Below the pieces are notes generated by a model. It was not told where the DNA came from and did not search any database. It was given only the letters and a program-made list of their open reading frames with translations. Shown piece after piece: positions 826 to 28,821 of a DNA stretch of 34,911 nucleotides. Made by a program: the position numbers and the translations under genes. Source of the DNA: a virus; IMG/VR virus record IMGVR_UViG_3300022752_000210, positions 1 through 34,911 of that record; one strand, 5' to 3'. Numbering within the stretch: position 1 is the stretch's first letter; the number at the start of each line of letters is the position of its first letter.

Positions 826-1422
826 ATGAAGCAATTAATTGTAGATTATATACCGTTTAAAGTTTCCACGGAAGCGATAAATGAAAGTATTAAAACAGGC
901 GGTAAACTCATAGTAAAAGGAGTATTGCAACGAGCTGATGCTAAAAATCAAAACGGTAGAAGATACCCCAAGCATGTATTGACTCGAGAAGAACGCAAAT
1001 ATCAAGAGTTGATCAAACAAAGAAGAGCTTTAGGTGAACTGGATCATCCGGACTCAACAGTCATCAACCTTAACAATGTATCGCATAATATAATTGAAAT
1101 GCATTGGGATGGTAATGATTTAGTTGGTACTGTTGAAGTTCTATCTACACCAGCCGGGAACATATTGAAAGAGTTGTTTAAATCCGGTATTACAGTAGGT
1201 ATCTCATCAAGAGGTATGGGCTCAGTTCGAGAATTGGAAGAAGGTATGTTAGAGGTACAAGATGACTTTGAATTGTTATGTTTTGACTTTGTAAGTAATC
1301 CTTCAACTCAAGGTGCATTTTTACAACCAATTCAAGAATCAGTTAACAGAGGTCTTATATCAAAAGCAAATAAATTTGATAGATTGAATCAAATTGTTAG
1401 TGATATTATTAGTTTAGGTTGA
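826..1422 (+). CDS. 21: Prohead core protease, T4 gp21-like
   Basis: A 198-residue serine protease of the T4 gp21 / herpesvirus assemblin-like class. It is expected to mature the prohead by cutting scaffold, capsid and internal proteins after (L/I)xE-type sites. Visible hallmarks are GELDHPDS with the probable catalytic His74, GISSRGMGS with the probable nucleophile Ser127 or Ser128, and the conserved LCFDFVSNPST block at 151-161. Length matches T4 gp21 (about 210). It lies upstream of the scaffold and capsid genes as in T4, although here five other genes intervene, four of them leader-type. The activity is central to interpreting those genes. Confidence 0.92.
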   Translation: MKQLIVDYIPFKVSTEAINESIKTGGKLIVKGVLQRADAKNQNGRRYPKHVLTREERKYQELIKQRRALGELDHPDSTVINLNNVSHNIIEMHWDGNDLVGTVEVLSTPAGNILKELFKSGITVGISSRGMGSVRELEEGMLEVQDDFELLCFDFVSNPSTQGAFLQPIQESVNRGLISKANKFDRLNQIVSDIISLG

Positions 1423-3151: not shown

Positions 3152-3219
3152 ATTAAATTTAAATCACTCAAAAAAAAAATCATGAAATTATCAGAATTTA
3201 AATCTCTTATTAGAGAAGA
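3143..3219 (+). repeat. Left arm of cargo cassette A (promoter + UTR + leader)
   Basis: This 77-nt stretch matches 28145-28220 with one substitution and one length change in an A run. It covers the promoter motif, an A-rich 5' UTR and the first 38 coding bases of the leader. Identity includes noncoding and synonymous positions, so it exceeds what protein conservation would maintain. Confidence 0.8.
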
Positions 3220-3418
3220 GATTAAACAATCATTACAGGAAGCACATTATACTTCTAGAACATATATATCAAACTTAGAACAAGCATGGGACGGTCCTGT
3301 TGATGCGTACGATGATCTAAATAACTTTTTCGCTGATGTTAAGCAACATCCGGATGTATACGGTGACTATAAGGCATGGGCGAAACAAATTGCTAAAGTA
3401 TTACAAAAATATAAATAA
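3182..3418 (+). CDS. Small leader-type cargo protein
   Basis: A 78-residue protein beginning MKLSEFKSLIREEIKQSLQE then Ala, the archetype of the class I leader. Possible gp21 sites are IRE (residues 10-12) and LQE (18-20). The remaining 58 residues are Tyr/Asp/Lys rich (SNLEQAWDGPVDAYDDLNNFF) and probably form a small helical domain. No catalytic motif is evident. It has its own promoter motif and is followed 12 bases later by a second leader gene sharing one terminator. Function unknown; packaging in the capsid is inferred. Confidence 0.7.
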   Translation: MKLSEFKSLIREEIKQSLQEAHYTSRTYISNLEQAWDGPVDAYDDLNNFFADVKQHPDVYGDYKAWAKQIAKVLQKYK

Positions 3419-3430
3419 TAATCCTCAATC

Positions 3431-3967
3431 ATGAAATTATCAGAATTTAGAGCTCTTATTAAAGAGGAAGTTAAAAAAGTAATTACCGAAAATAATACGG
3501 TCGATAATACGTCTGAGTCATTTAGAAAATCGATCGAAGATAAGATTTCTAAGTTATTTGATAAATTAGTACCCGGATCCGGTCCTGCAGAAACCGTCGA
3601 GGGCGAAATGGTACGTGCTATTAATAGGATATTATTTCGATATTATAATGACGGAGATTTTTATTTTAGAGGCTACGGTAAAGAAACCGTATCACCGTCC
3701 GTTAAGTATTTACTGGTAGTTCCGCCGAGCGATGTTATACGCGAGTTAAAGACGTTATTCGCAAAAGCAAAGTTAAATGCTCCGGAAAAACATCCTACTA
3801 AGAAGTATCAATACGTCGGTATGTATGAGGACACCGATGGTTATCAGAATGCTATATATTTAGCTGCCGATGTCATTTACAAATATGTAAAATCTAAAAA
3901 TGGTAAATATACGCCGAATACAATGAATTCTAGAAACAATACTAAAATTACTAATAAATCTACTTAA
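3431..3967 (+). CDS. Leader-type cargo protein with conserved GPAETVEGEMVRAINR block
   Basis: A 178-residue protein. Residues 1-20 are a class I leader (MKLSEFRALIKEEV..., ITE as possible site). Residues about 45-90 (LVPGSGPAETVEGEMVRAINR then RYYNDGDFYFRGYGKET) form a block I have seen in phage and bacterial hypothetical proteins of unknown function. The C-terminus is Asn/Lys/Thr rich. The body is visibly richer in CpG-containing codons (CCG, TCG, CGC) than the capsid gene nearby, hinting at separate origin. It ends just before a strong terminator. No biochemical role can be assigned. Confidence 0.7.
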   Translation: MKLSEFRALIKEEVKKVITENNTVDNTSESFRKSIEDKISKLFDKLVPGSGPAETVEGEMVRAINRILFRYYNDGDFYFRGYGKETVSPSVKYLLVVPPSDVIRELKTLFAKAKLNAPEKHPTKKYQYVGMYEDTDGYQNAIYLAADVIYKYVKSKNGKYTPNTMNSRNNTKITNKST

Positions 3968-3972
3968 TATTG

Positions 3973-4005
3973 AAATGCCTCGAATAGAAATATTTGAGGC
4001 ATTTT
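3973..4005 (+). terminator. Intrinsic terminator with GAAA tetraloop (cassette A right arm)
   Basis: A stem of AAATGCCTC (3973-3981), a G-U pair and AATA pairs with TATT plus GAGGCATTT (3996-4004), closed by GAAA at 3987-3990 and followed by a short T run. The 42 bases 3973-4014 are identical to 28825-28866. It ends the 3182-3431 unit. Confidence 0.85.
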
Positions 4006-4153
4006 CATGATCGAAAATTCAAAAGTTATATTTTGAAAAAAATCAATCATATATATTACTGACTAATATACCTTATCATCTAATATAAGGTTACCAATTA
4101 CTTATTACTTATTATAGTTTACAATAACTATATTTCCAAAAACAATTACGGAT

Positions 4154-5050
4154 ATGAAAGACTTGCTAAAAGAAGCAATTGTAGAGGCTAAGGCTGTTCG
4201 TGAGACTGCACTAGCTAATGCAAAATTGGCTCTTGAAGAAGCATTTGCTCCAAGACTTCAATCTATCATTTCAGCAAAAATGAATGAAATGGAAGAAGAG
4301 GAAGATCAAGAAGAAGATGTTATTGAAGAACCGGTTGAAGCTGCCGAAGAAATGCCGGCAGAAGAAACTCCTGAAACTGAAGAATCAGAGGAAGACTTTG
4401 ATTTTGAAGAATCAGAAGAAGAAGATGATGACGCTGAATTGGACGAAATCATCAGAGAACTAGAATCAGATGAAGCAGATGCTGCTGAAGTGGAACTAGA
4501 AGAAATGGAATCAGAAGAGGAAGTTGATTTGGATGAAATTATCAATTCTTTACGCGAAGAAGAGATGGATTCAGAAGAAGAAGCAGAATTGGAAGAAGAA
4601 ATGGCTGATGATGAGGAAGTTGATTTAGATGAAATCGTTAGTTCTCTTCGTGAAGAAGACGAAGAAGTTGCAGAAGAGGAAGCTGAAGATCATTCAGCTG
4701 AATTGGAAGAAGCATACAATGTTATCACTTATTTGAAGTCAAAACTCACTGAAGTGAATATCTTGAATGCAAAGCTTCTATACTCAAACAAGTTGTTTAA
4801 ATCATTCAACTTAAGCGACAGTCAAAAAATGAAGGTTATAGAAAATTTCGATCGCGCCAATACAATGCGTGAGATCAAGTTGATTTACACTACATTGACT
4901 GAATCTTTCAAAGCACCTGTTGCTAAAAAGGTAGTAAAAGAAGGATTTGCAAGTAAGCCTGTAGCGTCAACTAGACCTAACAATGCTACTGTATTAACCG
5001 AAGGAAATGAACAAGCTAACAGATTTAAAAAGTTAGCCGGATTATTGTAA
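4154..5050 (+). CDS. 22: Prohead core scaffold protein, T4 gp22-like
   Basis: A 298-residue scaffold. Residues 1-40 are helical and Ala/Glu/Lys rich. Residues about 45-180 are an extremely acidic Glu/Asp tract with internal repeats (LDEIIRELESDE, VDLDEIINSLREEE, VDLDEIVSSLREED). The C-terminal domain (about 185-255, YLKSKLTEVNILNAKLLYSN... FDRANTMREIKLIY) is the typical gp22 region. LRE and LTE sites are plentiful, consistent with destruction by gp21 during maturation. It lies immediately before gp23 as in T4. A 186-base upstream gap carries AT-rich sequence but no clear ATATTTAT motif. Confidence 0.9.
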   Translation: MKDLLKEAIVEAKAVRETALANAKLALEEAFAPRLQSIISAKMNEMEEEEDQEEDVIEEPVEAAEEMPAEETPETEESEEDFDFEESEEEDDDAELDEIIRELESDEADAAEVELEEMESEEEVDLDEIINSLREEEMDSEEEAELEEEMADDEEVDLDEIVSSLREEDEEVAEEEAEDHSAELEEAYNVITYLKSKLTEVNILNAKLLYSNKLFKSFNLSDSQKMKVIENFDRANTMREIKLIYTTLTESFKAPVAKKVVKEGFASKPVASTRPNNATVLTEGNEQANRFKKLAGLL

Positions 5051-5071
5051 ACAATTTAAAAAATCAAAAAC

Positions 5072-6739
5072 ATGAGTACATCAAATTTGTTAAAAGACAC
5101 CGATAATGTATATCGGAAACAAATTGCTGAAACCAAGGGTTTGGTTAACAAGTGGAAAAAGACCGGTCTATTAGAAGGTCTAAAACATGAGTATGACCAG
5201 CATGGTATGGCTATTATGCTTGAGAATCAAGCAAAACAACTAGTAACCGAAGCAAACAGTACCGGTACTAGTACCAATTCAGAACAATGGGCAGGCGTAG
5301 CGCTACCGTTAGTTCGTCGTATTTTTGCTGAGATTGCTGCAAAAGACTTTGTATCAGTTCAGCCAATGAACCTTCCTTCAGGTCTAGTATTCTACTTGGA
5401 CTTCAAGTATGGTTCAACCGTAGCCGGTTTTAAAGGAGCAAGTGACAGAACTTCAACTGATCCTACTAAGCCTGGTTATCAAGTTGATTCAGTATTCGGT
5501 GTAACTAATGATACTGCTGATGCTAACCAAGGTCTTTACGGTGCAGGTCGTTTTGGTTATTCTATCAATGACCAAGTAACTGCCGTATTGTATACCTCAG
5601 CATCAGTAACACCTAACGCTGCTACTGCATCTATCGTTGCAGCTACTGCAGGTTTCACTGATTCAATTTTCAATTACGACACCAAGTTCTCAGCTTCATA
5701 TGCTGGTAAGCACGCTGATTTCAAAGTGATCACAGTATCTACTGCATCATTTACTCGTCCTGATCTTAAAGGTGTTAGAGCGTTTATTCCTACCGGTTCA
5801 ACTATTTCCGCTGTATTCCCTCAGTTTACTAGCTATGATGCTACTAACGAAAGAATTTCATTTGTAGTGTCCGGTTCAATTGCATTAACTGGAGCAGCTG
5901 TAACGTCAGTTACTTATCAAGTTCAGCCAGTTGCTGATAACAGAGGTGATTTCGAAGATACTTCAGGTGGTGCAACTAGCATTAACATCCCTGAAATCAA
6001 CGTTGAACTTCGTTCTGATACTATTGTAGCTAAGACTCGTAAGTTAAAAGCTATTTGGACTCCGGAATTCGCTCAGGACTTGAATGCATACCATTCAATT
6101 GATGCTGAAGCTGAATTGACTTCAATGTTATCTGAGTACATCTCAATGGAAGTGGATCTAGAAATTCTAGATATGCTTATCCAGAATGCAGTTACCACTG
6201 AGTACTGGTCAACTACCGTAGGTGAGTATTGGAATGGTAACGGTTTCACTGCCGACTCTTCAACCAATGCAGCTTCTGCGTACAACCAAGGTCAATGGTT
6301 CCAAACTCTAGGTACCAAGATCCAGAAAGTATCTAACAAAATTCATCAAAAGACTTTAAGAGGTGGTGCAAACTTCCTTGTATGTTCTCCTGATGTAGCT
6401 ACTATTCTTGAATCTATCCCTGGATATGCAGCTGACACTAATGGTGACAAGATGCAATTTGCGATGGGTGTACAGAAAGTAGGTTTGTTGAACAACCGAT
6501 TCACTGTATACAAGAATCCTTATATGTTAGAGAACACGATCCTATTAGGTTACCGTGGTGCTCAGTTCCTTGAGACAGGTGCTGTTTATGCTCCATATGT
6601 ACCGTTGATTATGACTCCACTTGTAATGGATCCTAATAACTTCACTCCTAGAAAAGGTGTAATGACAAGATACGCTAAGAAAGTCGTTCGTCCTGAATTC
6701 TATGGTAAGATCTACGTTAAAGGTTTGCAGTCTATCTAA
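5072..6739 (+). CDS. 23: Major capsid protein, T4 gp23-like
   Basis: A 555-residue HK97-fold capsid protein of the gp23 family. Hallmarks include EQWAGVALPLVRRIFAEIAAKDFVSVQPM (about 69-97), EINVELRSDTIVAKTRKLKAIWTPE (about 308-332), DLNAYHSIDAEAELTSMLSEYIS and the C-terminal MTRYAKKVVRPEFYGKIYV. The N-terminal 60 residues form a basic, helical propeptide ending LVTE before ANSTGT, so gp21 would be expected to cut after Glu60 (T4 cuts gp23 after Glu65). A strong terminator follows. Codon use is cleaner and less AT-extreme than neighbouring cargo genes, as expected for a highly expressed gene. Confidence 0.97.
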   Translation: MSTSNLLKDTDNVYRKQIAETKGLVNKWKKTGLLEGLKHEYDQHGMAIMLENQAKQLVTEANSTGTSTNSEQWAGVALPLVRRIFAEIAAKDFVSVQPMNLPSGLVFYLDFKYGSTVAGFKGASDRTSTDPTKPGYQVDSVFGVTNDTADANQGLYGAGRFGYSINDQVTAVLYTSASVTPNAATASIVAATAGFTDSIFNYDTKFSASYAGKHADFKVITVSTASFTRPDLKGVRAFIPTGSTISAVFPQFTSYDATNERISFVVSGSIALTGAAVTSVTYQVQPVADNRGDFEDTSGGATSINIPEINVELRSDTIVAKTRKLKAIWTPEFAQDLNAYHSIDAEAELTSMLSEYISMEVDLEILDMLIQNAVTTEYWSTTVGEYWNGNGFTADSSTNAASAYNQGQWFQTLGTKIQKVSNKIHQKTLRGGANFLVCSPDVATILESIPGYAADTNGDKMQFAMGVQKVGLLNNRFTVYKNPYMLENTILLGYRGAQFLETGAVYAPYVPLIMTPLVMDPNNFTPRKGVMTRYAKKVVRPEFYGKIYVKGLQSI

Positions 6740-7037: not shown

Positions 7038-7433
7038 ATGAAGCTATCACAACTTAAACAATTAATACGAGAAGAAGTTAAATCTGTAATGAATGAAACC
7101 GGCGCGGATGCGGGACAGCTTCGCGATATGGTGGATAAGATAAACAAGGCTAATATTCTCCCATCGACAATCGGCGGTCTATCGAACATTAGGGCTACAG
7201 TAGCAGATGGGGGATATGGATACTCATACGGTTCACCGGGCATCGACGGACCTAAAATTGTTATTATTGGTTCCGGAGTACGAAAAAAGCCATTCAAACC
7301 ATCAGTACCATTTTCAATGCATATAGCTACTATTCATGATGGTGAGGTATTTGTTTCTGATTGGGATAAAATAGAATCGGAAAAGATATGTAAAAAGCTC
7401 GCACAAATGTTTGATTTGAAAGTAGTAAAATAA
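7038..7433 (+). CDS. Leader-type cargo protein
   Basis: A 131-residue protein starting MKLSQLKQLIREEVKSVMNE, a class I leader. ATG 7038 was preferred over upstream in-frame non-ATG starts because it places the leader exactly at the N-terminus, as in its paralogues, and downstream of the promoter motif. The body contains a Gly-rich segment (DGGYGYSYGSPGIDGPK, about 60-76) and a C-terminal alpha/beta-like part (FSMHIATIHDGEVFVSDWDKIESEKICKKLAQMF). Codons are CpG-richer than in gp23. Family and function unknown; first gene of the operon. Confidence 0.68.
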   Translation: MKLSQLKQLIREEVKSVMNETGADAGQLRDMVDKINKANILPSTIGGLSNIRATVADGGYGYSYGSPGIDGPKIVIIGSGVRKKPFKPSVPFSMHIATIHDGEVFVSDWDKIESEKICKKLAQMFDLKVVK

Positions 7434-7439
7434 TATATC

Positions 7440-7667
7440 ATGAAGCTATCACAACTTAAACGATTAATCCGAGAAGAAGTAAAAAAATCTTTAATGGAAG
7501 ATTATACTTATGAAGGTATTGAAGATGCTATATTAGGTGGAGTAGCAGATTGGGCTGGTATATCAAAAGAAAAACTTTGGAACGGTATGGGTCCGAAAGT
7601 CGGTAAAGCGTTAGATGTTTTAGTAAAAGAATTGAAGCCGGTATTAGATTCCAAGTTTACGAAATGA
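7440..7667 (+). CDS. Small leader-type cargo protein
   Basis: A 75-residue protein starting MKLSQLKRLIREEVKKSLME, a class I leader nearly identical at the DNA level to that of the preceding gene (ATGAAGCTATCACAACTTAA). LME before Asp is a possible gp21 site. The remaining residues form one small predicted helical domain (YEGIEDAILGGVADWAGISKE). It is 6 bases after the previous stop, and its TGA overlaps the next ATG. No function can be read. Confidence 0.65.
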   Translation: MKLSQLKRLIREEVKKSLMEDYTYEGIEDAILGGVADWAGISKEKLWNGMGPKVGKALDVLVKELKPVLDSKFTK

Positions 7668-8410
7668 TAAAATTGAAATTACTTATTGAAGATGAAGTGG
7701 ATGATGCATTCGGTAAAGTACCGTTTGCATCTAAACGTGCATTCAACAAGATAAAGAATCTTCCATATGATGATAATGTTTTAGATTCAGTTAATGATGC
7801 TATAAAAAACTACTTAAAGACTCCCGGTGAAAATTTATCTGATATTGAATTGAAGATTTTGATAGCAATAGTTGATTGGGTTCAAGGATTTAGAAGTGGT
7901 ATGACAAAGTCTGCTAATACTTTAATCAAGTTTAAATCATTGTTACAGTTAGCTAAAAGTAAATTCCCGCAAGTATTTGAACCGAGTACAGCAATAAATA
8001 CTCCTGTATACAGAGGCGTACATGGTGATTGGATTGATAAAATTTTAAATACGAATCGAAGCGATTGGGAACCGTATAAATCTCCTGATTGGAAATCATG
8101 TTACATACGAAAACGGCCTGTCGATTACAATCCTAGGACAGTACTTCAAAGTTGGACGACTGATGCAGAAGTAGCACGATGGTTCGGTAGTACTACAACA
8201 AAGAATTTAGAAGGTGGAAGAGGTACTATCATTTTAATCAGTGAACTTTCAAATGATTTTATTTTCAATGAAAATTTTCTTGGTACGGTATATGCAGCCG
8301 TATCCGATGCTGATAAAAATGAATCGGAAGTAGTACATTTTGGAGTTGAATATGCAAAACCTGTTAATGTATTAATAAGTGAAAACGTTTACAAATCTAT
8401 AAATCAATAA
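7664..8410 (+). CDS. Leader-bearing ADP-ribosyltransferase-like protein (Alt-like)
   Basis: A 248-residue protein. The N-terminus MIKLKLLIED is a class II leader with a possible cut after Glu9. The C-terminal domain has the R-S-E pattern of arginine-type ADP-ribosyltransferases: TPVYRG (Arg117), SWTT (Ser163, STS-like) and ESE (Glu220-Glu222, ExE motif). T4 Alt has the corresponding LYRS, STS and EME motifs, carries a short N-terminal targeting segment removed by gp21, is packaged in the head and is injected to modify host RNA polymerase. An equivalent role here is inferred. It is coupled to the genes on each side (4-base overlap upstream, 3-base gap downstream). Confidence 0.72.
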   Translation: MIKLKLLIEDEVDDAFGKVPFASKRAFNKIKNLPYDDNVLDSVNDAIKNYLKTPGENLSDIELKILIAIVDWVQGFRSGMTKSANTLIKFKSLLQLAKSKFPQVFEPSTAINTPVYRGVHGDWIDKILNTNRSDWEPYKSPDWKSCYIRKRPVDYNPRTVLQSWTTDAEVARWFGSTTTKNLEGGRGTIILISELSNDFIFNENFLGTVYAAVSDADKNESEVVHFGVEYAKPVNVLISENVYKSINQ

Positions 8411-9588: not shown

Positions 9589-10121
9589 ACATTCAATTGG
9601 AACAATTAAATTCTTTATTAGAGAAAAATGTACCGAATGATCCCGGTAAGTGGTCATATTATAAAAGTCAAGCAAAAAAGAAGTTTGATGTTTATCCATC
9701 AGCTTATGCAAATGCTTGGGCTGCTAATCAGTATAAGAAAGCTGGCGGTACTTGGAGAAAAACTAACGAAGCAATTGACGGTAAAAATTTATGTACAGAA
9801 TGTGCGATTAAGCTCATGAATTCATTAAAAGAAGCTACTATATCAGAAGCAGTATATCAAGGGCGTACCGTTACTCTAAACAAGCCTATGAGAGGAGATG
9901 TAAAGAAGTATAAAGTGTATGTTACAAATGACAAAGGTAATGTGGTAAAAGTGAATTTTGGTGACCCGAACATGTCCATAAAGAGAGATGATCCGGAAAG
10001 AAGAAAATCTTTTAGAGCGAGACATAAATGTTCTCAAAAGAAGGACAGAACGAGTGCGGGTTATTGGTCTTGCAAGATGTGGTCTTCTAAACCAGTAAGT
10101 CAAATTCTAAAAGGTAAATGA
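9585..10121 (+). CDS. Cargo protein with two phage-associated domains of unknown function
   Basis: A 178-residue protein. The N-terminus LEQLNSLLEKN is weakly leader-like. Residues about 19-65 (PGKWSYYKSQAKKKFDVYPS... QYKKAGGTWRK) form a block common in phage hypothetical proteins. Residues about 68-90 contain CTECAIKLMNSLKEATISE, where LKE and ISE before Ala could be internal gp21 sites. The C-terminal KSFRARHKCSQKKDRTSAGY then WSCKMW is another recurrent phage motif with two Cys. The start overlaps the previous stop (ATGA) and the stop overlaps the next start. I recognise the domains by pattern only. Confidence 0.65.
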   Translation: MNIQLEQLNSLLEKNVPNDPGKWSYYKSQAKKKFDVYPSAYANAWAANQYKKAGGTWRKTNEAIDGKNLCTECAIKLMNSLKEATISEAVYQGRTVTLNKPMRGDVKKYKVYVTNDKGNVVKVNFGDPNMSIKRDDPERRKSFRARHKCSQKKDRTSAGYWSCKMWSSKPVSQILKGK

Positions 10122-10840
10122 TGATCAAACTCAAAACATTATTAGAATATTCCTATAAATCTTCGAAGATTTTTGACTTCGATGATACTCTTGCTACGAC
10201 TGATACTAGAGTTCGAGTTGTACATAAAGATGGTACTGAATCTTTCTTGAATCCGGCCGAATATGCAGTGTATAATGCTAAACCGGGCGATGAGTTTGAT
10301 TACACTGAGTTCAACAAAATGTTGAAATCACCGAAACCGATCGATAAAATTTGGAAACTGTTAGTTGCTGCTACGAAAAATCCGGCTAATAAAGTTACCA
10401 TATTGACTGCGAGACGATTGGCATTTCCAATCAGATACTGGTTGAAACGTATGGGATTGGATGTATATGTAGTAGCAGTAGCTTCATCAGATCCGCAAAA
10501 GAAAGTGGATTGGATTGAAAAGGAAATTAAAAGAGGCGCAACAAATATCACATTTATTGACGACTCGATAAAAAATGTAAAAGCTGTAGCTAAATTAAGT
10601 GATGAATATCCTGCAGTTTCTGTTAAATCTGTAACACCGGATCGAGTCGGTTCTTTAAAAGAATTTTCAGGTGCTACGATGAACGCACAGGAAATGGAGA
10701 GACACAAGAAAAAGTTGAAAAAATTGAACGCAATCATGAAACATCAGGGAGATCAAATGATGGTATATCCTGATTTAGAGAAAACGGTTATAGGAGCAAA
10801 GTTGTTGACGAGTCCTAACCCATTAAAAATAAAAAAGTGA
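10118..10840 (+). CDS. Leader-bearing HAD-superfamily phosphatase-like protein
   Basis: A 240-residue protein with ATGATG at its start. The second ATG (10121) gives MIKLKTLLEYS, exactly matching the class II leaders, and may be the true start. HAD motifs follow: motif I DFDDTLATT with Asp20 and Asp22, motif II TILTARR with Thr97, a Lys near 128-129 and motif III FIDDS at 147-150. Such folds are usually phosphatases, including nucleotide or polynucleotide 3'-phosphatases like the T4 PseT domain. The C-terminal tail (about 175-240) is basic. It overlaps both neighbours. Substrate unknown. Confidence 0.78.
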   Translation: MMIKLKTLLEYSYKSSKIFDFDDTLATTDTRVRVVHKDGTESFLNPAEYAVYNAKPGDEFDYTEFNKMLKSPKPIDKIWKLLVAATKNPANKVTILTARRLAFPIRYWLKRMGLDVYVVAVASSDPQKKVDWIEKEIKRGATNITFIDDSIKNVKAVAKLSDEYPAVSVKSVTPDRVGSLKEFSGATMNAQEMERHKKKLKKLNAIMKHQGDQMMVYPDLEKTVIGAKLLTSPNPLKIKK

Positions 10841-11715
10841 AACTGAAAAAACTTTTACCCAATTCTTTGAACGAATGCGTAGTTGCCACTGTACATTTGA
10901 ATGGTGAAACCATCTTAGCTAAGAATCGCGATAGAAAGTATTCTCCGAAAATAGAAATAATTCATGAACTTATTGATGGCGTTGAAGTAGTGTATATTCA
11001 TGATACAATTACAGATTGGTCTGAGGGCATGAATGAATATGGTATTGGTATTATCAATGCATCATTACTAGTACATTATGATGAAATTGAAGCAGACATT
11101 GTAACCGGTAAAGTTGATTTTGACAAAGAGAAAAAAGGAGTACAACCTTCATATGATGGATTAAAGATTAGAAAGTCTTTATCTGAACATCAATTGAGTA
11201 AAGCAATAAAATCTATTATAGAGTATAAAGGAGAAGATAAGAAAGACGTTGGAGTGAAAGGTATGACAATGATAGCCAATCCGAAACATGCATTTGTTAT
11301 TGAATTGACATCAGCACATTTACCTGTAATTAAAAAGATAGATAGGCCGATAGTTACCGTTCGAACCAATCACGGTATTGCTTATCCGGAGGCAGGATAC
11401 ACTTCCGGAATTAAACGAGAATCGTCCGTATCTAGAATGGAATTGGCTAAACGAGCTTTGAAAAAAGTTACTGATGCGAATCAAATTTTACCGGCATTAT
11501 CTAAACAATGGACAGATGACAATTTTCTAAACCCATATAGAAGAGAGAATAAACAGGAAATGCATACAACCGGCCAGATCATGATGAATTTAGACAAACT
11601 CGAGTTCAATTTCAGATGGGACAAAAATCATTCCAAATTCTTAGGAGTCGTAAACAAATTGCCGAAGGATTATAAACCAAAAATTACTATCAACTTAATA
11701 TCAGAAATACAATGA
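10837..11715 (+). CDS. Ntn-type amidohydrolase (C45/linear-amide hydrolase-like) behind a cleavable leader
   Basis: A 292-residue protein with a GTG start in a GTGA overlap. Residues 1-13 (MKLKKLLPNSLNE) are a class II leader. Cys14 opens CVVATVHLNGETILAKNRDR, the N-terminal signature of Cys Ntn-hydrolases (penicillin acylase, choloylglycine hydrolase and C45 acyltransferase groups), followed by TDWSEGMNEYGIGIIN (about 62-77) and VTVRTNHG (about 172-179). In these enzymes the Cys must become N-terminal to act. Here it directly follows LNE, a gp21-type site, so capsid protease could create the active enzyme. This link is inference; the fold assignment is reasonably strong. Confidence 0.78.
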   Translation: MKLKKLLPNSLNECVVATVHLNGETILAKNRDRKYSPKIEIIHELIDGVEVVYIHDTITDWSEGMNEYGIGIINASLLVHYDEIEADIVTGKVDFDKEKKGVQPSYDGLKIRKSLSEHQLSKAIKSIIEYKGEDKKDVGVKGMTMIANPKHAFVIELTSAHLPVIKKIDRPIVTVRTNHGIAYPEAGYTSGIKRESSVSRMELAKRALKKVTDANQILPALSKQWTDDNFLNPYRRENKQEMHTTGQIMMNLDKLEFNFRWDKNHSKFLGVVNKLPKDYKPKITINLISEIQ

Positions 11716-11963
11716 AACTGAAAAATTTAATTGACAATATTGTTGTTGAAAATTATGGAGGCCCGGGCGAAATGGTTTTGCCGGCAAATCACAAAGCAGG
11801 ATTGAAAGTACCGAAAGGTGGATCATGTTGCGCCAATTGTAAACATTGGGCCGCTGAAGAAAAAGTTTGTGTAAGTAAATACTACATCAAATGGGCCAAA
11901 ACGAATACAATTCCTTACCCGGCCGATGAGTATTGTACTAATTGGTGGGAGCCGATAAAGTAG
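11712..11963 (+). CDS. Cys-rich small protein with leader
   Basis: An 83-residue protein starting MKLKNLIDNIVVENYG, class II leader-like with VVE as a possible site. Cysteines 39, 40 and 43 (GGSCCANCKHW), Cys53 (VCVSKYY) and Cys73 (DEYCTNWWEP) give four spaced positions suited to a metal site. The pattern is reminiscent of small iron-sulfur (HiPIP-like) or zinc proteins seen in phage genomes, but the metal cannot be decided. It is the last gene of the 7038-11963 operon, coupled by ATGA to the amidohydrolase. No convincing terminator follows. Confidence 0.62.
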   Translation: MKLKNLIDNIVVENYGGPGEMVLPANHKAGLKVPKGGSCCANCKHWAAEEKVCVSKYYIKWAKTNTIPYPADEYCTNWWEPIK

Positions 11964-15911: not shown

Positions 15912-17084
15912 ATGCGACGTCGAGTTTCGAACAAAAATGAAAGTACATTTGGTTTAGATGAGAATATCAAGCGAGTAGAACAGATTCGCCGTGATACCGA
16001 CTCGATTCGCCCTGTAGCAGTTTCACTGTATGATGTAGATTACAATGTGAAATGGTATATTGAAAATATAGTAGTACCCGGTATAATTCAATTAGGTAAA
16101 ATATCAGACATACCGGTAGAATTTGCTTCACCGGAAAAATGGGCCGGCATTCAAAGTTCCGGTTATTTACGAGATCCTGAAGATAAAGTTTTATGTCCGG
16201 TCATAGTGATTAGAAGAACTGGTATGTCAAGTCGTACAGACGTGAATCCTAGTCCTATATTTCGAGATATCTTTATAAAGGATAGCAGTAATGCACTCAT
16301 ATTTCAAAAGAAATATAGTAAAGAAAACAGATACGATCAAATGTCTCTGTTAAGTAGACCTCCATTAAAAGAGTATTATGCAATAGACCTACCGCAATAT
16401 GTTGAATTGCAATATGATATTACTGTATGGACTGAAAGGTTAGATCAATTGAATGATGTGGTGGAACAGTTTATTTATCAAAGCGGTAAAGCGTACGGAG
16501 ATACATATAAATTTATTTCATATGTAGACGCTTCCAGTTTAGATTTGACCAATAATATTGGTGAAGATAGAATAGTGCGAAGTGTAATTCCTTTACGAAC
16601 CAAAGCTTATTTGATACCGGAACATGTAAATAAAAATCAAGCTAACATGAAAAAGTTTTTCAGTGTTAACAAGATTTTATATACAATGGAAACTACCGGT
16701 ACCACTGAATCTATAACGCAAGCCACTGGAACTTCTAAAACTTCCGTGACTTCAACCGCAGGTGCTGGTGGAGTAAAAATTGATTTGAGTACTGATGTTA
16801 TTGAATATTTAAATGCAAATTTAACAGTACCGAGCGATTCTATAACGACAAATACAGCTACATTCAATAACGTTAGAATTTTAACGGCCCCGCCTACGTT
16901 ACCCTCAACTGATAAAAATTCATTTACATATTTTGTTAACGGTCAATTGATACCCGTTTCATATGTAGTTTCCATAGCAAATGTAGGATCAAGTGTAGTA
17001 GTTACTTTAGATACGTCATCTCTAGGATTTACATTATCCGGAGACGATGTGGTATTGTTATCAGGTAAACTAGAATCTGTATGA
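15912..17084 (+). CDS. 15: Tail completion/sheath stabiliser, T4 gp15-like, with C-terminal extension
   Basis: A 390-residue protein. The region about 150-190 (YAIDLPQYVELQYDITVWTE, RLDQLNDVVEQFIYQ) matches the shape of the T4 gp15 block (YELSIFTRYEDDMFQIVEQI), and WSL-like ends are replaced by SVIPLRTKAYLIPE. T4 gp15 caps the tail and stabilises the sheath. Residues about 255-390 are a Thr/Ser-rich linker plus a beta-rich domain (FTYFVNGQLIPVSYVVSI...) absent from T4 gp15. Its TGA overlaps the fibre gene ATG. Assignment rests on pattern plus gp13-gp14-gp15 order. Confidence 0.62.
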   Translation: MRRRVSNKNESTFGLDENIKRVEQIRRDTDSIRPVAVSLYDVDYNVKWYIENIVVPGIIQLGKISDIPVEFASPEKWAGIQSSGYLRDPEDKVLCPVIVIRRTGMSSRTDVNPSPIFRDIFIKDSSNALIFQKKYSKENRYDQMSLLSRPPLKEYYAIDLPQYVELQYDITVWTERLDQLNDVVEQFIYQSGKAYGDTYKFISYVDASSLDLTNNIGEDRIVRSVIPLRTKAYLIPEHVNKNQANMKKFFSVNKILYTMETTGTTESITQATGTSKTSVTSTAGAGGVKIDLSTDVIEYLNANLTVPSDSITTNTATFNNVRILTAPPTLPSTDKNSFTYFVNGQLIPVSYVVSIANVGSSVVVTLDTSSLGFTLSGDDVVLLSGKLESV

Positions 17085-20000
17085 GTTTAAGGTTTAGAAG
17101 TGAACAGTTAAGATCACCGTTAAGCGGTACATTCACCGGAAGTTTTATAGGTGATGGATCGCAGTTAACTAATCTTAATGTAAATACTGGCTCATTTGCT
17201 ACTACCGGTTCCAATACATTTACAGGTGCACAAAACGTACAGTCGAGTGTAACTGCAAGTAACGTATCATTGAAATCCGGTAACTCGGATGATAGTACAC
17301 CGTACAATCATCAAATTAAATTGAATTATTATGGCGGTGATTATCCGCACTACATAGTAACAGAACATTCAATCAGCGAAGCAAGTAATTCAATTGATTT
17401 TTGGGTCAATAAAGGATATCAAGTAGCAAATCCATACAGCAATACGACTCAATTGGCACTTCGAGTTACCGGTAACGGTGTTCTGGTATCAAAATCATTG
17501 CAAGTCACCGGTCCAGTTATTGCGAACAGTTTTACAGGTAGTTTATACGGTACATCGAGTTGGGCTGAAAATGTAATCAGTGCTTCATATTCGCAGACTG
17601 CAAGCTATGCATTGAATGCGTCCGGGGTAGATACTTCTAGTTTAGTAACTACATCATCATTTAACAATTACACTTCAAGTGCACAGGGCCAAATAAATAG
17701 TTTAACTCAAGCTACCGGTTCATATGCTACTACCGGTTCCAATACATTTAAAGCTTCGCAGACGATTGACGGTAATCTGTTCATGAGTGGAGCGTTTAGA
17801 TTGATTTATAACAATGATCCGGCCAATAACATGTTGTTCGGTCAATTTGATGGTAGTAACATATACGGGCCATACTATCAATTATTTGGAAATCAATATT
17901 CAAATGTATCACAACGTGGTAGTGCCGAGTTTGTATATGATGTACGAAATGGCGGCGATAGCGGTTTTAACATAGCATCTTTTAATGGCAGTAGTTGGAC
18001 CAGAAGATTTAGAGTAGCAGATACTGGCACTGTAATAACTGGCTCATTGAATGTAACGGAAGGAATAACAGGATCACTATACGGTACTTCAAGTTGGGCT
18101 GAAAATTTTAATGAAACGGATCCGGTCTTTACTTCTGTATCCGGTACATTTGCAACGACAGGTTCAAACGTATTTATCGGTGATCAATCTATAACCGGGG
18201 ACCTAAATATAACCGGTTCACTTAAAGTTACTACATCGGATGTAAACTCTGCATACATACAGGGTACAGGTAATTACAATAGACTATTTATTGATAACAC
18301 TGTATCGCCACCGGACGAACCGAATGTAGGATTTGGGCTATCTGCAAACGGTCAATTGCATTGGTCAATTGCTTCATATGGACCGAATCGAGATTTTACG
18401 CTTTATCACGATGCACCGGGGTATGGTAGTGATGTTATTAAAATAGACGGTTCGACTGAACTTATTACAATAAATAAACCTGCCAGTGCAAGTAAAGGTA
18501 TTACCGGATCATTATACGGTACTTCAAGTTGGGCCGAGAATGCATCAACTGCTTCAAACATATTAGGCGGAAAAGCGACTCACATACCGTACTTTATAAC
18601 GGATACTACACTTTCTACAAGTTCCCTGTATCAATCAGGTTCATCCACTGTCATAATCAATCAAGATAATGCAACTACGGCTAATCCGGAAGCATTATAC
18701 GTGTGGCAGCCGAGTACCACATCATTCAATGTAATAAGTGGTAAAGGTAATTTGGATAATTATCTACAATTGAATATTCAAAATACAAATCAAGGTTCAA
18801 ATGCTTCTTCGGATATAGTAGCTACAGCTAATAACGGTAATGAGTCTGAAAATTACATTGATGTCGGTATAAACAGTGAAAATTATAACGGCTTTTTAGG
18901 AGGACCGAATGATGCATATGTATACAGTCATAGTAACAATTTATGGATAGGTAATGCAAATGACAATCACAGTATATATCTATTCAACAGTTCTAGTTTA
19001 GAGCCGATAGTCACTATCACGCCTAACAATAACGTAGAAATCACCGGTTCATTGAATGTAACTGGTAATTTAGTAGTATCAAGTATTACCGGTTCATTGT
19101 TAGGTAGTTCATCATATTCAAGTACTTCATCATATTCAAGTACTTTAGGTGCTAGTTTAAGTCAGCCGGCTAACAATCAAGTAAGACTATTAAGTAGTAA
19201 CGGATCTACATTAGGTAGTACGATTACAATTAATAATGTTACTTCAGCATCACACGCTGCTAATGCCACTTTAGCCGACACTGCAACCTATGCGGTTACG
19301 GCAGGTAATGGCGGGGTGACGCAATTAGTGGCAGGTTCAGGTATTACATTAGTACCTGCGGGCGGGCAGGGTGCAGTTACTATTATAGCATCAGCCGGCG
19401 CCGGTGTAACGATAATATCCGGATCATTGGTAACCGGATCATTTACAAATGTAACCTCATATACATTCAATCATAATTTAAATACTAGAACTCCTATAAT
19501 AACCGTATTTGATTCAAATTACAATCAAATAATACCGGAAAATATACAATTGATAGATTCATCTAGTGCATTAATTACGTTTCCGACCAATGAAAGTGGA
19601 TTTGCAATCGGTTCAACCGGAGGTACGACGGGTACGGTATTGTCATCATCATATGCAACATTCTCAGATTATGCTACAACGGCTTCTTATTACAATGAGA
19701 AAGATCCTATATTTGTAGCTAAGAGTGCTTCATTTGCTACTACCGGGTCCAATGTATTTCGAGGCAATCAAACGGTAACAGGTAGTTTATTTACTTCCGG
19801 TTCAAATACATTAGTGGGTAATACGGTATTATCCGGTTCATTGAATATATCCGGGTCGCAGATATTTTATGGTGTATCGCAATTATATGGTAATCATACA
19901 TTAAGTGGTAGCAACACAATTACCGGTAATACCGTATTAAGTGGTAGCATTGAAGTTAGCGGATCTTCAAATTTCCATAATAGTATATTTATAGTTACAG

Positions 20001-20560
20001 GCTCAGCATTTTTCACCGGCTCACACGTAGTACGTGGTACAACGACCGTTACCGGTTCATTGAATGTAACTGGAGATCTTAACGTAATAAGTGGTAGTAG
20101 TTTTTATAGATGGGGTAACAAATTATTTAATTACGGACAATTTGTAAATACCGCTTCCATATCAGCGACTGCAAACGTATCCGCTTCATTTCCATTTCCG
20201 GTAACGCAGTTCAGTGAAGGTGTTAGTGTGGTAAGTGGTAGTAGAGTTACATTTCAACATACAGGATTGTACAATTTACAAATTGCTGCACTTGCAAGTC
20301 AAGGAACGAATACTCCGAATCTTCATATATGGTTCAAGAAAACCGGATCAAACATGGAGTATTCTGATACTGTAGTACAATTGCAAAATAACAGTCAGAC
20401 TGCATTGAACTGGAATTATGCATATCCGTTTAATGCAAATGAATATGTTGAGGTATGGTATCATACTAGTGCAGCTAATACTTCATTTCCATACGGAGCG
20501 GCCGGTAGTGGTTTTCCGGCATCACCTTCTATTACATTAACAGTAACACAGATCGCTTAA
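17081..20560 (+). CDS. Long repetitive tail fibre with C-terminal jelly-roll-like domain
   Basis: A 1159-residue fibre. Most of it is built from short beta repeats: GSLYGTSSWAEN three times (153-164, 331-342, 476-487), FATTGSN(T/V)F six or so times, and VTGSLNV(T)G and SGSNTxxGNT blocks, as in trimeric beta-helical fibre shafts of marine phages. The last ~150 residues (from about YRWGNKLFNYGQF through FQHTGLYNLQIAALAS to SITLTVTQIA) look like a C1q/TNF-type jelly-roll receptor-binding head. It probably contacts the host surface. It overlaps the gp15-like gene by ATGA and precedes two shorter relatives. Confidence 0.85.
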   Translation: MSLRFRSEQLRSPLSGTFTGSFIGDGSQLTNLNVNTGSFATTGSNTFTGAQNVQSSVTASNVSLKSGNSDDSTPYNHQIKLNYYGGDYPHYIVTEHSISEASNSIDFWVNKGYQVANPYSNTTQLALRVTGNGVLVSKSLQVTGPVIANSFTGSLYGTSSWAENVISASYSQTASYALNASGVDTSSLVTTSSFNNYTSSAQGQINSLTQATGSYATTGSNTFKASQTIDGNLFMSGAFRLIYNNDPANNMLFGQFDGSNIYGPYYQLFGNQYSNVSQRGSAEFVYDVRNGGDSGFNIASFNGSSWTRRFRVADTGTVITGSLNVTEGITGSLYGTSSWAENFNETDPVFTSVSGTFATTGSNVFIGDQSITGDLNITGSLKVTTSDVNSAYIQGTGNYNRLFIDNTVSPPDEPNVGFGLSANGQLHWSIASYGPNRDFTLYHDAPGYGSDVIKIDGSTELITINKPASASKGITGSLYGTSSWAENASTASNILGGKATHIPYFITDTTLSTSSLYQSGSSTVIINQDNATTANPEALYVWQPSTTSFNVISGKGNLDNYLQLNIQNTNQGSNASSDIVATANNGNESENYIDVGINSENYNGFLGGPNDAYVYSHSNNLWIGNANDNHSIYLFNSSSLEPIVTITPNNNVEITGSLNVTGNLVVSSITGSLLGSSSYSSTSSYSSTLGASLSQPANNQVRLLSSNGSTLGSTITINNVTSASHAANATLADTATYAVTAGNGGVTQLVAGSGITLVPAGGQGAVTIIASAGAGVTIISGSLVTGSFTNVTSYTFNHNLNTRTPIITVFDSNYNQIIPENIQLIDSSSALITFPTNESGFAIGSTGGTTGTVLSSSYATFSDYATTASYYNEKDPIFVAKSASFATTGSNVFRGNQTVTGSLFTSGSNTLVGNTVLSGSLNISGSQIFYGVSQLYGNHTLSGSNTITGNTVLSGSIEVSGSSNFHNSIFIVTGSAFFTGSHVVRGTTTVTGSLNVTGDLNVISGSSFYRWGNKLFNYGQFVNTASISATANVSASFPFPVTQFSEGVSVVSGSRVTFQHTGLYNLQIAALASQGTNTPNLHIWFKKTGSNMEYSDTVVQLQNNSQTALNWNYAYPFNANEYVEVWYHTSAANTSFPYGAAGSGFPASPSITLTVTQIA
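17537..18541 (+). repeat. Three copies of GSLYGTSSWAEN-coding repeat in fibre gene
   Basis: Copies at 17537-17572, 18071-18106 and 18506-18541 encode the same 12 residues, with only a few synonymous differences. Each follows ITGS/FTGS and precedes a variable insert. They mark module boundaries where recombination could swap fibre segments. Confidence 0.75.
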
Positions 20561-25697: not shown

Positions 25698-26261
25698 ATG
25701 AAACTATCAGAATTTAAATCTCTTATTAAAGAGGAAGTCGACTTAGCTTTATTTGAACATCAGTTAACTGAAGGTAAAATTTCAGATTTTTTATCTAAAA
25801 TAAAGTTAGCGGCTATGAAAGCGGCTAAGGACAATTACAGTGATGCGATTGCACATATTGATGTGGATAAATTGAAGGCTGAACCGATGTCTATATCGAA
25901 ACTTGATAAGGTGCAACGTGAATTGGAGTCGCAGTCTCAACAAATTTCTGAAGGATTTGTCGACAAATTGAAATCATTCGCTCGTAAGGGATTTGCTATC
26001 GGTGCAATTGGAAGTGTAATTTCCGGAGCAACTGTAGCAGTATCTGCTATGAATTATTTAGATTATTCATTCACTAAATGGTATTATACTACTATACAGG
26101 GTATGGCTAAACCGGAAGTAATGAAAGCAATGAATGATATATATGGTGCGAAGGTTGAAGAATCTAGTATATGGTTCACATTCGGAATGTATGTATTCAG
26201 TGTATTCTTCGTTATAGCTTTGTTATCATACGCATCAATTCGTATAAACAAGCAAAAATAA
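25698..26261 (+). CDS. Leader-type cargo protein with two membrane segments
   Basis: A 187-residue protein. The class I leader MKLSEFKSLIKEEVDLALFE is followed by HQLTEG, giving possible gp21 cuts after LFE or LTE. The middle is charged helix. Two hydrophobic segments follow (about 97-117, AIGAIGSVISGATVAVSAM, and about 155-178, WFTFGMYVFSVFFVIALLSY). A packaged membrane protein would be unusual and could act at the envelope during DNA entry; that is speculation. The gene sits just after the sheath terminator with no obvious promoter of its own, so it may depend on readthrough. Confidence 0.66.
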   Translation: MKLSEFKSLIKEEVDLALFEHQLTEGKISDFLSKIKLAAMKAAKDNYSDAIAHIDVDKLKAEPMSISKLDKVQRELESQSQQISEGFVDKLKSFARKGFAIGAIGSVISGATVAVSAMNYLDYSFTKWYYTTIQGMAKPEVMKAMNDIYGAKVEESSIWFTFGMYVFSVFFVIALLSYASIRINKQK

Positions 26262-26271
26262 AACATAAATT

Positions 26272-26601
26272 ATGAAACTATCGGAATTTAAATCTCTTAT
26301 CAGAGAAGAAGTTAAAAAAGTATTAGTAGAGCAAGATACAAATGAAGCTATGGAGGCGATAGAAGCCATTAAAAAGCACGTTAAGATTTTAATGGATACT
26401 GATATCGCGAAAGAGGATGCAGTGCTACAACGACTTCTGGCGAAGTATACAGGGCTTTTAGGTAAAATCACCGGATACATTAAAAAGAAAGGTGCTGAAT
26501 CTGCGGAGCCGACTGAAGAACCTGCTGAGGAACCTAAACGAGATCTTCGCAAAATAGAATCTCCAAAAGAAAAGACTGAAGAGGAGCCGGAGGTTGCATA
26601 A
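26272..26601 (+). CDS. Small leader-type cargo protein with acidic tail
   Basis: A 109-residue protein with leader MKLSEFKSLIREEVKKVLVE, a helical core (NEAMEAIEAIKKHVKILMDT, then AVLQRLLAKYTGLLGKITGY) and a Glu/Pro-rich tail (EEPAEEPKRDLRKIESPKEK). LVE before Gln is the possible gp21 site. It follows the membrane cargo gene by 10 bases and precedes a promoter-bearing gap before the tail tube gene. No enzymatic motif. Function unknown. Confidence 0.66.
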   Translation: MKLSEFKSLIREEVKKVLVEQDTNEAMEAIEAIKKHVKILMDTDIAKEDAVLQRLLAKYTGLLGKITGYIKKKGAESAEPTEEPAEEPKRDLRKIESPKEKTEEEPEVA

Positions 26602-27279: not shown

Positions 27280-28110
27280 ATGAAAAAAGAATCATTAAAA
27301 GAATCTGTACAGTTTCGTCCTAGTAGAATTAAATCTAAACGATCCGTAACGGACGGTAAATTTCATTTCGTATTTGAATTCACGCCGAGTAGATGGATAG
27401 ACGACCATATATCAATGGTACAGTATGATAATTCCGGTGAAGAGATAGCGAGTTACGATATACCAGAAGACTTTTTTGATACTATTAGTACGACTGATTA
27501 TCTAAATGCAGCATTTAAGGCGTTGAAAAAACATAAAATACGACCGATAAAGGAACATCATATTAAACTATCGCAATTTAAATCTCTTATTAGAGAAGAA
27601 ATTCAAAGCGTTCTGAGAGAGTTTAAAGATCCTAAACTCATAAAAGGTGTTGACATTACCATTGAAATGGATGATGAAGATGACAATTTTAAAGCTGGCG
27701 ATTATACGATTTCCGGTCTTACTAGAGGCGGTGTAATATTGTCGGGAATGGGAGAACGTAATCTTCACATCACTTTCGATGCACTTAAAGATGCCGGTTA
27801 TACTATCAATGAAAATGTAAATGAAGCTGATAATTTAGGAGCATTCAGAAGATTGGTTATCACTACCAATAAATTGGATATGATAAAAAGTGAAATTGAA
27901 GATTACATTAAACGGCCTAATATCAAATCAGATTATGCTGATGCGAAATTGTCAATTAAGCCCGGTGTAAAACCTAATGTATTGGTTGTAGACATTGAAG
28001 CAGTAAGCGGTACTGCATTAGCAAACAAGATATCTGATGTAGTTAAAAAGTTTGATAAAACTGCAAATATCAAAGTGAGAAAAGAACTCAAATTGAAACC
28101 AATTAAATAA
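27280..28110 (+). CDS. Fused double-leader cargo protein
   Basis: A 276-residue protein made of two cargo modules. Residues 1-8 are the MKKESLKE leader, identical in its first 24 bases to gene 1879, followed by a ~85-residue beta-rich domain. At residues 95-114 a complete class I leader (IKLSQFKSLIREEIQSVLRE) appears internally, with ATT where paralogues have the start ATG, and is followed by a second module (about 115-276, VDITIEMDDEDDN..., FRRLVITTNKLDMI, LSIKPGVKPNVLVVDI). If gp21 cuts both leaders, this would yield two products. It lies between the tube terminator and the next cassette. Function unknown. Confidence 0.72.
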   Translation: MKKESLKESVQFRPSRIKSKRSVTDGKFHFVFEFTPSRWIDDHISMVQYDNSGEEIASYDIPEDFFDTISTTDYLNAAFKALKKHKIRPIKEHHIKLSQFKSLIREEIQSVLREFKDPKLIKGVDITIEMDDEDDNFKAGDYTISGLTRGGVILSGMGERNLHITFDALKDAGYTINENVNEADNLGAFRRLVITTNKLDMIKSEIEDYIKRPNIKSDYADAKLSIKPGVKPNVLVVDIEAVSGTALANKISDVVKKFDKTANIKVRKELKLKPIK

Positions 28111-28144: not shown

Positions 28145-28220
28145 ATAATTATTATTAAATTTAAATCACTCAAAAAAAAATCATGAAATTATCAGAATTT
28201 AAATCTCTTATTAGAGAAGA
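28145..28220 (+). repeat. Left arm of cargo cassette B (promoter + UTR + leader)
   Basis: Matches 3143-3219 with one substitution (inside the promoter motif, giving ATAATTATT at 28145-28153) and one A fewer in the A run. The motif lies 38 nt before ATG 28183. The paired right arm is the terminator at 28825. Confidence 0.8.
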
Positions 28221-28821
28221 AGTTCAAAAAGTACTTTCTGAATATTATGCTGGAGGTAATGACACTATCGGTAAAGTAATGAAAAGTGGAGATTGGTCTT
28301 GGATTTCTGCTAAAGAACTAAGTAAGCGTCCATTTAAACAGTTAAATTTAGTTAGTAAGTTTGCACCGATCCACGCCGGTTTACAGAAATTTGCAAATGT
28401 AAAGGTACAAGACTTTTTTACCAATAAAGAGTATAATGAACTGGAAGAAATTCAAGAACAACTTATGGATGCCGGTTACGATGCTGCAGATCTCAAAAGC
28501 ATGTTTAATGATGTTTATAAAATAGTAGCTACTGCTATTAAAAGAAATCAATCCGGATTGTCAGAAGCAGCTCGAGTATCACAAAAAACTAAAGATGAAG
28601 TATGGGCTACCATAAAAAATACATTGAACACGGATAAGAGACACAGGCGTAATGACGCATTGGATGTAAAAGATTTGCTAGGCTTCGCAGGATTTTCGGG
28701 CGATAAAATACCTCTTGTTAGAAACATTGCTCATGAATTGGTAAAAGATGGAATATTGATACCGAGTGAATCTAAATGGGGAGAGCTTCGATTTAAAGTT
28801 AATAAAGCCGCTTTAAAATAA
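28183..28821 (+). CDS. Leader-type cargo protein, possible winged-helix C-terminus
   Basis: A 212-residue protein with leader MKLSEFKSLIREEVQKVLSE then Tyr. The middle is helical (KRPFKQLNLVSKFAPIHAGL, EYNELEEIQEQLMDAGYD). The C-terminal part (about 150-210, TDKRHRRNDALDVKDLLGFA, then LVRNIAHELVKDGILIPS and LRFKVN) has the helix-turn-helix plus hairpin rhythm of a winged-helix domain, which would allow nucleic acid binding; this is a guess from pattern. It is the sole gene of cassette B, between the duplicated promoter-leader arm and the duplicated terminator. Confidence 0.68.
   Translation: MKLSEFKSLIREEVQKVLSEYYAGGNDTIGKVMKSGDWSWISAKELSKRPFKQLNLVSKFAPIHAGLQKFANVKVQDFFTNKEYNELEEIQEQLMDAGYDAADLKSMFNDVYKIVATAIKRNQSGLSEAARVSQKTKDEVWATIKNTLNTDKRHRRNDALDVKDLLGFAGFSGDKIPLVRNIAHELVKDGILIPSESKWGELRFKVNKAALK

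Follow-up and report, generated by a model that had tools for sequence, protein, structure and literature searches.

How does an enzyme of a class that works through a free N-terminal nucleophile come to be encoded with its catalytic Cys placed directly behind what looks like a cleavage site of the phage's prohead protease? The question is raised by an open reading frame (ORF) at 10837-11715 (+ strand) of a T4-like phage sequence of 34,911 nt, the whole of which is called the window here. The ORF starts with GTG and encodes 292 aa, MKLKKLLPNSLNE followed by CVVATVHLNGETILAKNRDR. Cys14 comes directly after the leader MKLKKLLPNSLNE (10837..10875, + strand), which ends in the gp21-type site L-N-E and is predicted to be disordered. 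The proposed scissile junction, E13/C14 (10873..10878, + strand), has Glu as P1 and the catalytic Cys as P1' and rests on P1/P3 conservation in homologues. The GTG shares 4 bases (GTGA) with the stop of the upstream gene; because no other start precedes Cys14, a miscalled start was rejected.

A preliminary description, made from sequence alone, had proposed that this protein is an Ntn-hydrolase with Cys14 directly after a capsid-protease site and that leader removal in the prohead would both package the enzyme and switch it on. Its account of the junction is exact, as judged from the ORF reading and from 156 homologues; the remaining claims are taken up below.

Fold and catalytic residues of the hydrolase

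The window protein alone had no family match in Pfam or PHROGs scans, and against NCBIfam C45_proenzyme it scored 29.6 bits (E 4.3e-7), under the curated cutoff of 85 bits. In family scans of 41 diverse phage homologues, C45_proenzyme was matched by 39 (best, 2e-13) and Pfam AAT by 20 (best, 4e-7). Profile positions before 99 of the C45_proenzyme model remained unmatched, and the phage family has no conserved pro-domain of ∼90 residues; unlike that pro-domain, the 13-residue leader of the window hydrolase shows no conservation between relatives. Sequence-profile matches in the PDB, to isocitrate dehydrogenase and flavodoxin, were judged to be chance.

An AlphaFold2 model, made with an alignment of 40 full-length homologues, reached a pLDDT of 86 and a pTM of 0.87; in residues 1-11 the pLDDT was below 50. 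In Foldseek, isopenicillin N acyltransferase (IAT) ranked first among solved structures, at 7e-10; CV2077, choloylglycine hydrolases, and penicillin V acylase ranked next. VIA-align Z scores were 20.2 for NAAA, 19.3 for IAT, 18.9 for acid ceramidase, 16-17 for bile-salt hydrolases (CBAH)/PVA, and 15.8 for TANGO2. The alpha-beta-beta-alpha fold is met, with Z scores of 15-20 against many solved members over residues 14-292, and residue 14 of the model superposes on the N-terminal nucleophile Cys of the solved relatives (C103/C126/C143/C2/C1). The protein is a cysteine Ntn-hydrolase with its nucleophile at residue 14; the fold and the nucleophile position are shown, and the mature N terminus itself is inferred. 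On this point the preliminary description held: the structure prediction that it had suggested around Cys14 was run and confirmed both the fold and the mapping of the nucleophile.

The mature domain comprises 279 aa (10876..11712, + strand). The catalytic set of IAT is Cys103, Asn119, Asp121, Asn246, and Arg268 (PMC13044924), and the spacings of the phage family match it: +16 and +18 from the Cys and 22 between Asn and Arg. On the + strand of the window, the corresponding positions are N30-R31-D32 (10924..10932), which holds the catalytic Asn and Asp (mature N17 and D19) at the same distance from the Cys as in IAT; N178 (mature N165; 11368..11370), the oxyanion-hole Asn in RTNHG; and R200 (mature R187; 11434..11436), the catalytic Arg, which follows the Asn by 22 residues like N246/R268 of IAT. 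In mature numbering, C1, N17, D19, N165, and R187 are invariant among the 41 diverse phage homologues.

The relatives of known structure differ from the phage protein at the N terminus. IAT (peptidase family C45; PDB 2x1c/2x1d) is the best Foldseek match, with a Z score of 19 and the same catalytic spacing, but it reportedly cuts itself and carries an alpha subunit of ∼100 residues, whereas the phage protein has a short, variable leader with a viral protease site at its end. NAAA and acid ceramidase share the nucleophile position (Z scores of 20.2 and 18.9 over about 205 to 210 residues), but they are lysosomal and autoproteolytic and have only 12 to 15% identity to the phage protein. TANGO2, CBAH, and penicillin V acylase share the fold, and their Met-Cys start resembles that of a phage subgroup described below, but they are activated by Met removal or self-cleavage and lack a targeting leader; the N-R-D triad of TANGO2 is also present in the phage hydrolase. 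The fold points to an N-acyl or other amide bond as the substrate, a tentative assignment. The only cultured host of a hydrolase relative is Chryseobacterium (Bacteroidota), which is a lead on the substrate and no more.

The junction before the catalytic Cys

Relatives were gathered from IMG/VR with full-protein, mature-only alignment, and distant-member queries, and two Chryseobacterium phages were added. The IMG/VR searches yielded 380 confirmed hydrolase stretches; a query with L081 gave no additional contigs. Two further, distant viral homologues are the BFVD entries A0A1B1IVH7 and A0A8S5L6I8. No cellular relatives were found in two GTDB contig scans, which rested on two short peptide patterns, and none were found on plasmids.

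Among 156 distinct mature phage sequences, Glu precedes the catalytic Cys in 148 and Met in 8, and no third residue occurs there. A hydrophobic-x-E motif is present in all 148 Glu-type homologues, with P3 always hydrophobic (L84, I56, V6, M1, and F1; L/I in 140/148). In 130 of the Glu-type sequences, the entropy of P1 is 0 bits even though both Glu codons occur (GAA, 96; GAG, 34), that of P3 is 1.33 bits (hydrophobic only), that of P2 is 2.86 bits, and that of P4-P12 is 3.2 to 3.8 bits. The LNE/C junction is not a chance occurrence: only Glu or Met stands before the Cys in relatives collected with the mature part alone as well as with the full protein. A hydrophobic-x-E/C or M/C junction is universal in the homologues, and the pattern of a site before the Cys reaches far beyond the window, being clean and widespread in phages.

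The junction is kept whatever stands before it: the shortest leader has 4 residues (MINE), others exceed 30, and some proteins have entire domains fused upstream. Fusions of the hydrolase to ∼100 residues from a different phage domain, or to two domains, also keep a junction such as LNE, VTE, or IHE; in the two-domain fusion of L010, 341 residues lie upstream of the hydrolase and the site persists. In the fusions of L089, L091, and L096, the junction site is the sole [LIV]xE in about 100 upstream residues. Conversely, 31 of 121 leaders contain an extra upstream [LIV]xE, yet another lies exactly at the Cys. A cut at the upstream site would already remove a targeting sequence. Cleavage at E/C is likely on this strong comparative evidence; the cleavage itself is inferred, with no proteomics to support it.

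The protease proposed to make this cut is encoded in the window itself. A gp21-type prohead protease (Peptidase_S77) lies at 826..1422 (+ strand; PF03420, E 1.6e-29; phrog_207, head maturation protease, 2e-53), and we propose it as the activator. An S77 gp21 is on the same contig in 27 of the 42 hydrolase records checked, including both Chryseobacterium phages; several records without gp21 are short fragments, in which absence carries little meaning. In many contigs tens of kb separate the hydrolase gene from gp21, which counts against activation by gp21; in its favor, the gene of L063 (5010 onward) sits between gp21 and gp22/gp23, in the prohead-core cluster. In the Chryseobacterium phages MA9V-2 and MA9V-1 (L234 and L235), the S77 protease is part of a very long open frame of 1213 to 1349 codons, in contrast to the ∼200 residues of gp21 elsewhere.

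In T4, the gp21 site is L/I-X-E, with the cut after the Glu, and N-terminal propeptides, among them those of the IPs and Alt, are removed in this way (PMC9026906); the LNE/C of the window protein fits this published motif. The gp23 major capsid protein of the window (5072..6739, + strand; PF07068, 7.9e-81) has a predicted propeptide site, LVTE60/A61, the position of which was predicted from the T4 layout. Relatives keep [LIV]xE/A or S at this site (LLDE/A in L063 and LINE/S in L052/L144), in agreement with the (L/I/V)xE specificity found at the hydrolase Cys. An acidic, E-rich ORF just before gp23 (4154..5050, + strand) is a probable gp22-like scaffold by position and composition only, and no convincing family match was found for it.

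All eight Met-type homologues have a bare Met-Cys start, and the forms examined show a blunt ATG-TGT start after noncoding sequence. The leaderless relatives are L182, L186, L227, L228/L229, L233, L271, L324, and L340; some Met-form contigs also encode gp21. On the tree, Met-Cys forms branch from among Glu-Cys ones, with at least three E/M changes, two of which are forced by well-supported branches. Because they are nested in this way, the fold does not require Glu, and what is kept is a free N-terminal Cys; a Glu before the Cys as a fold requirement was rejected on the evidence of these members. Cys is among the residues that permit Met removal by methionine aminopeptidase (PMC10052503), and a protease site before the Cys and a Met before the Cys are the two simplest ways to reach an N-terminal Cys. 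The preliminary description had named homologues with the same fold but without xE before the Cys as a refuting case. Such homologues exist (8/156), but since Met removal would give the same N-terminal Cys, they support its logic. They also suggest that direct use of this enzyme in the infected cell is possible. To that extent they count against our main reading, as gating by the head is not essential to use of the enzyme.

A putative head-activated zymogen and its rivals

Ntn-hydrolases require the free alpha-amino group of their N-terminal nucleophile, an established property (reviewed in PMC9140057). If the leader is removed only by gp21, the enzyme would be a prohead-restricted zymogen. 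In the mechanism that we propose, the hydrolase would be made with a short leader ending in the recognition site of the phage's own gp21 (S77) and would be off while the leader leaves the catalytic Cys without a free alpha-amino group. Inside the prohead, active gp21 would cut after the Glu, as in gp23 and other head proteins, and the new N terminus would be exactly the catalytic Cys. Activity would be confined to maturing heads and to the next host cell, which the enzyme would enter together with the ejected DNA. Longer leaders (MKLK.LL and MKNLIRSILNE) would probably double as capsid-targeting sequences, and the minority of relatives that lost the leader would be activated at once by host methionine aminopeptidase acting on the Met-Cys start.

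We consider a head-packaged zymogen activated by the prohead protease to be likely, with a probability of roughly 0.74; cleavage, packaging, ejection, and inactivity of the precursor are all inferred. That a gp21 gene is present in the same genomes and that repeated leaders end in the same motif is shown, and activation by capsid maturation, as put forward in the preliminary description, is supported to this extent. Its other half, that leader removal packages the enzyme, is weaker, and the evidence for packaging falls short of that for E/C cleavage. The first 10 residues are required for T4 IPIII head targeting (PMC9026906). Set against a capsid-targeting sequence (CTS) of about 10 residues, the leader of the window hydrolase has 13 and resembles that of a neighbor, but other members have leaders of only 4 to 8 residues (MINE, MKLLE, and MAKILQE), which fall below the T4 minimum. 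By the T4 measure these are too short, and the leader alone is thus probably not the packaging signal in every member. We found no virion proteomics for any family member; for MA9V-1 there is an SDS gel only.

The main rival is self-activation, in which the hydrolase would cut its own E/C bond in cis like IAT, acid ceramidase, and NAAA, and its resemblance to sites of gp21 would be coincidental or structural. In its favor, the nearest folds are self-processing enzymes, the nearest NCBIfam model, matched by 39/41 members, is named for a C45 autoproteolytic proenzyme, and self-cleavage is described superfamily-wide (PMC13044924, PMC9140057). However, a hydrophobic P3 and a P1 Glu within a variable, disordered leader have the look of a protease motif rather than of a fold requirement, Met-Cys members without these residues still retain the enzyme, and the family lacks a conserved pro-domain of ∼90 residues like that of the C45 model. 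Self-activation also leaves the likeness to gp23 sites and other leaders unexplained, and we regard it as unlikely; the evidence from the motif favors a cut in trans.

An ordinary capsid-targeting leader, with a real cut by the Cys but a protein that is no longer an enzyme or is active whether cut or not, is less probable still. CTS-like LxE leaders are indeed common in this phage on unrelated proteins, but the catalytic C, N, D, N, and R are invariant, the cut is always at the nucleophile even where an upstream LxE would suffice, and leaderless forms start precisely with Met-Cys. We can all but exclude that a different Glu-specific protease, whether host or phage encoded, cuts the hydrolase outside the head, so that the enzyme acts in the infected cell and is not virion cargo. 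Packaging is not shown, and leaders such as MINE and MKLLE seem too small as a targeting signal, which would suit this alternative; against it, the site has the motif of the phage's S77 protease and of the gp23 sites, and the L063 gene sits in the prohead-core cluster. To our knowledge, no Glu-specific host protease of the needed kind has been described.

Neither the fold nor the machinery for head targeting is new. In the open papers to which our literature search was limited, we found neither a head-protease-activated cargo enzyme nor a virion Ntn-hydrolase nor a cargo zymogen with a nucleophile made by the prohead protease, so the claim of the preliminary description that no example had been described held within that scope. 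Reviews attribute Ntn activation to self-processing or Met loss (PMC13044924, PMC9140057). The closest parallel is offered by T4 IPI-III and Alt, head cargo that enters the host and has an N-terminal propeptide cut by gp21 after L/I-x-E, but we found no report that the gp21 cut makes the nucleophile of such cargo, whereas here it would create the active site. If the zymogen reading is true, an Ntn-hydrolase family that depends on another protease and works only inside the viral head would represent a new route of activation, prohead proteolysis would gain a role beyond shell maturation in the timed activation of ejected effectors, and a site immediately before the nucleophile would serve as a sequence rule for finding more zymogens among phage head proteins. 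On balance we lean, with less confidence, toward the bolder reading that capsid maturation is a switch and that phages package Ntn-hydrolase zymogens; a potentially harmful amidase would then stay inactive in the cell that makes it and be active in the virion and in the next host.

Repeated leaders and neighboring genes

Sequence comparison showed that a 20-residue leader occurs eight times in the window, always on the + strand, with hydrophobic-x-E at position 20 (e.g., MKLSEFKSLIREEVKKVLVE) and a mean identity of 68%. They stand before unrelated mature sequences: MKLSEFKSLIREEIKQSLQE, followed by A (3182..3241); MKLSEFRALIKEEVKKVITE, followed by N (3431..3490); MKLSQLKQLIREEVKSVMNE, followed by T (7038..7097); MKLSQLKRLIREEVKKSLME, followed by D (7440..7499); MKLSEFKSLIKEEVDLALFE, followed by H (25698..25757); MKLSEFKSLIREEVKKVLVE, followed by Q (26272..26331); and MKLSEFKSLIREEVQKVLSE, followed by Y (28183..28242). 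One copy, IKLSQFKSLIREEIQSVLRE, followed by F (27562..27621), is internal to a longer ORF, 27280-28110. We infer that this leader is likely a capsid-targeting sequence and that its carriers are candidate head cargo of unknown function.

Across loci, the hydrolase leader is closer to other N termini of its own contig than to those of different contigs, in 11 of 49 cases (permuted mean, 3.0; maximum, 8; 1000 permutations). Both direct neighbors of the window hydrolase bear MIKLK/MKLK leaders resembling its own. Upstream, a HAD/polynucleotide-kinase phosphatase-like ORF (10118..10840, + strand; phrog_415, 7.5e-10) has the leader MIKLKTLLE and a 4-base overlap with the hydrolase start; downstream, a small Cys-rich ORF (11712..11963, + strand), noted for its leader likeness, has the hydrolase-like leader MKLKNLIDNIVVE, followed by N.

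Farther away, ORF 7664-8410 has MIKLKLLIE as its leader and carries a pattern like that of ADP-ribosyltransferases (R, then QSW, then ESE), which is kept in L095 and L098. It is perhaps an Alt-like packaged enzyme, a possibility without a family match and with a structure model of only pLDDT 38. In L010, around 3987-5834, a single ORF of 616 residues unites the counterparts of window ORFs 8414 and 9585 and of the hydrolase; with LNE at the hydrolase junction, it could conceivably be a head polyprotein. Elsewhere in the window, the product of 17081-20560 is long and tail-fibre-like, and it contains many GSL.V.G....GSLYGTSSWAEN-type repeats.
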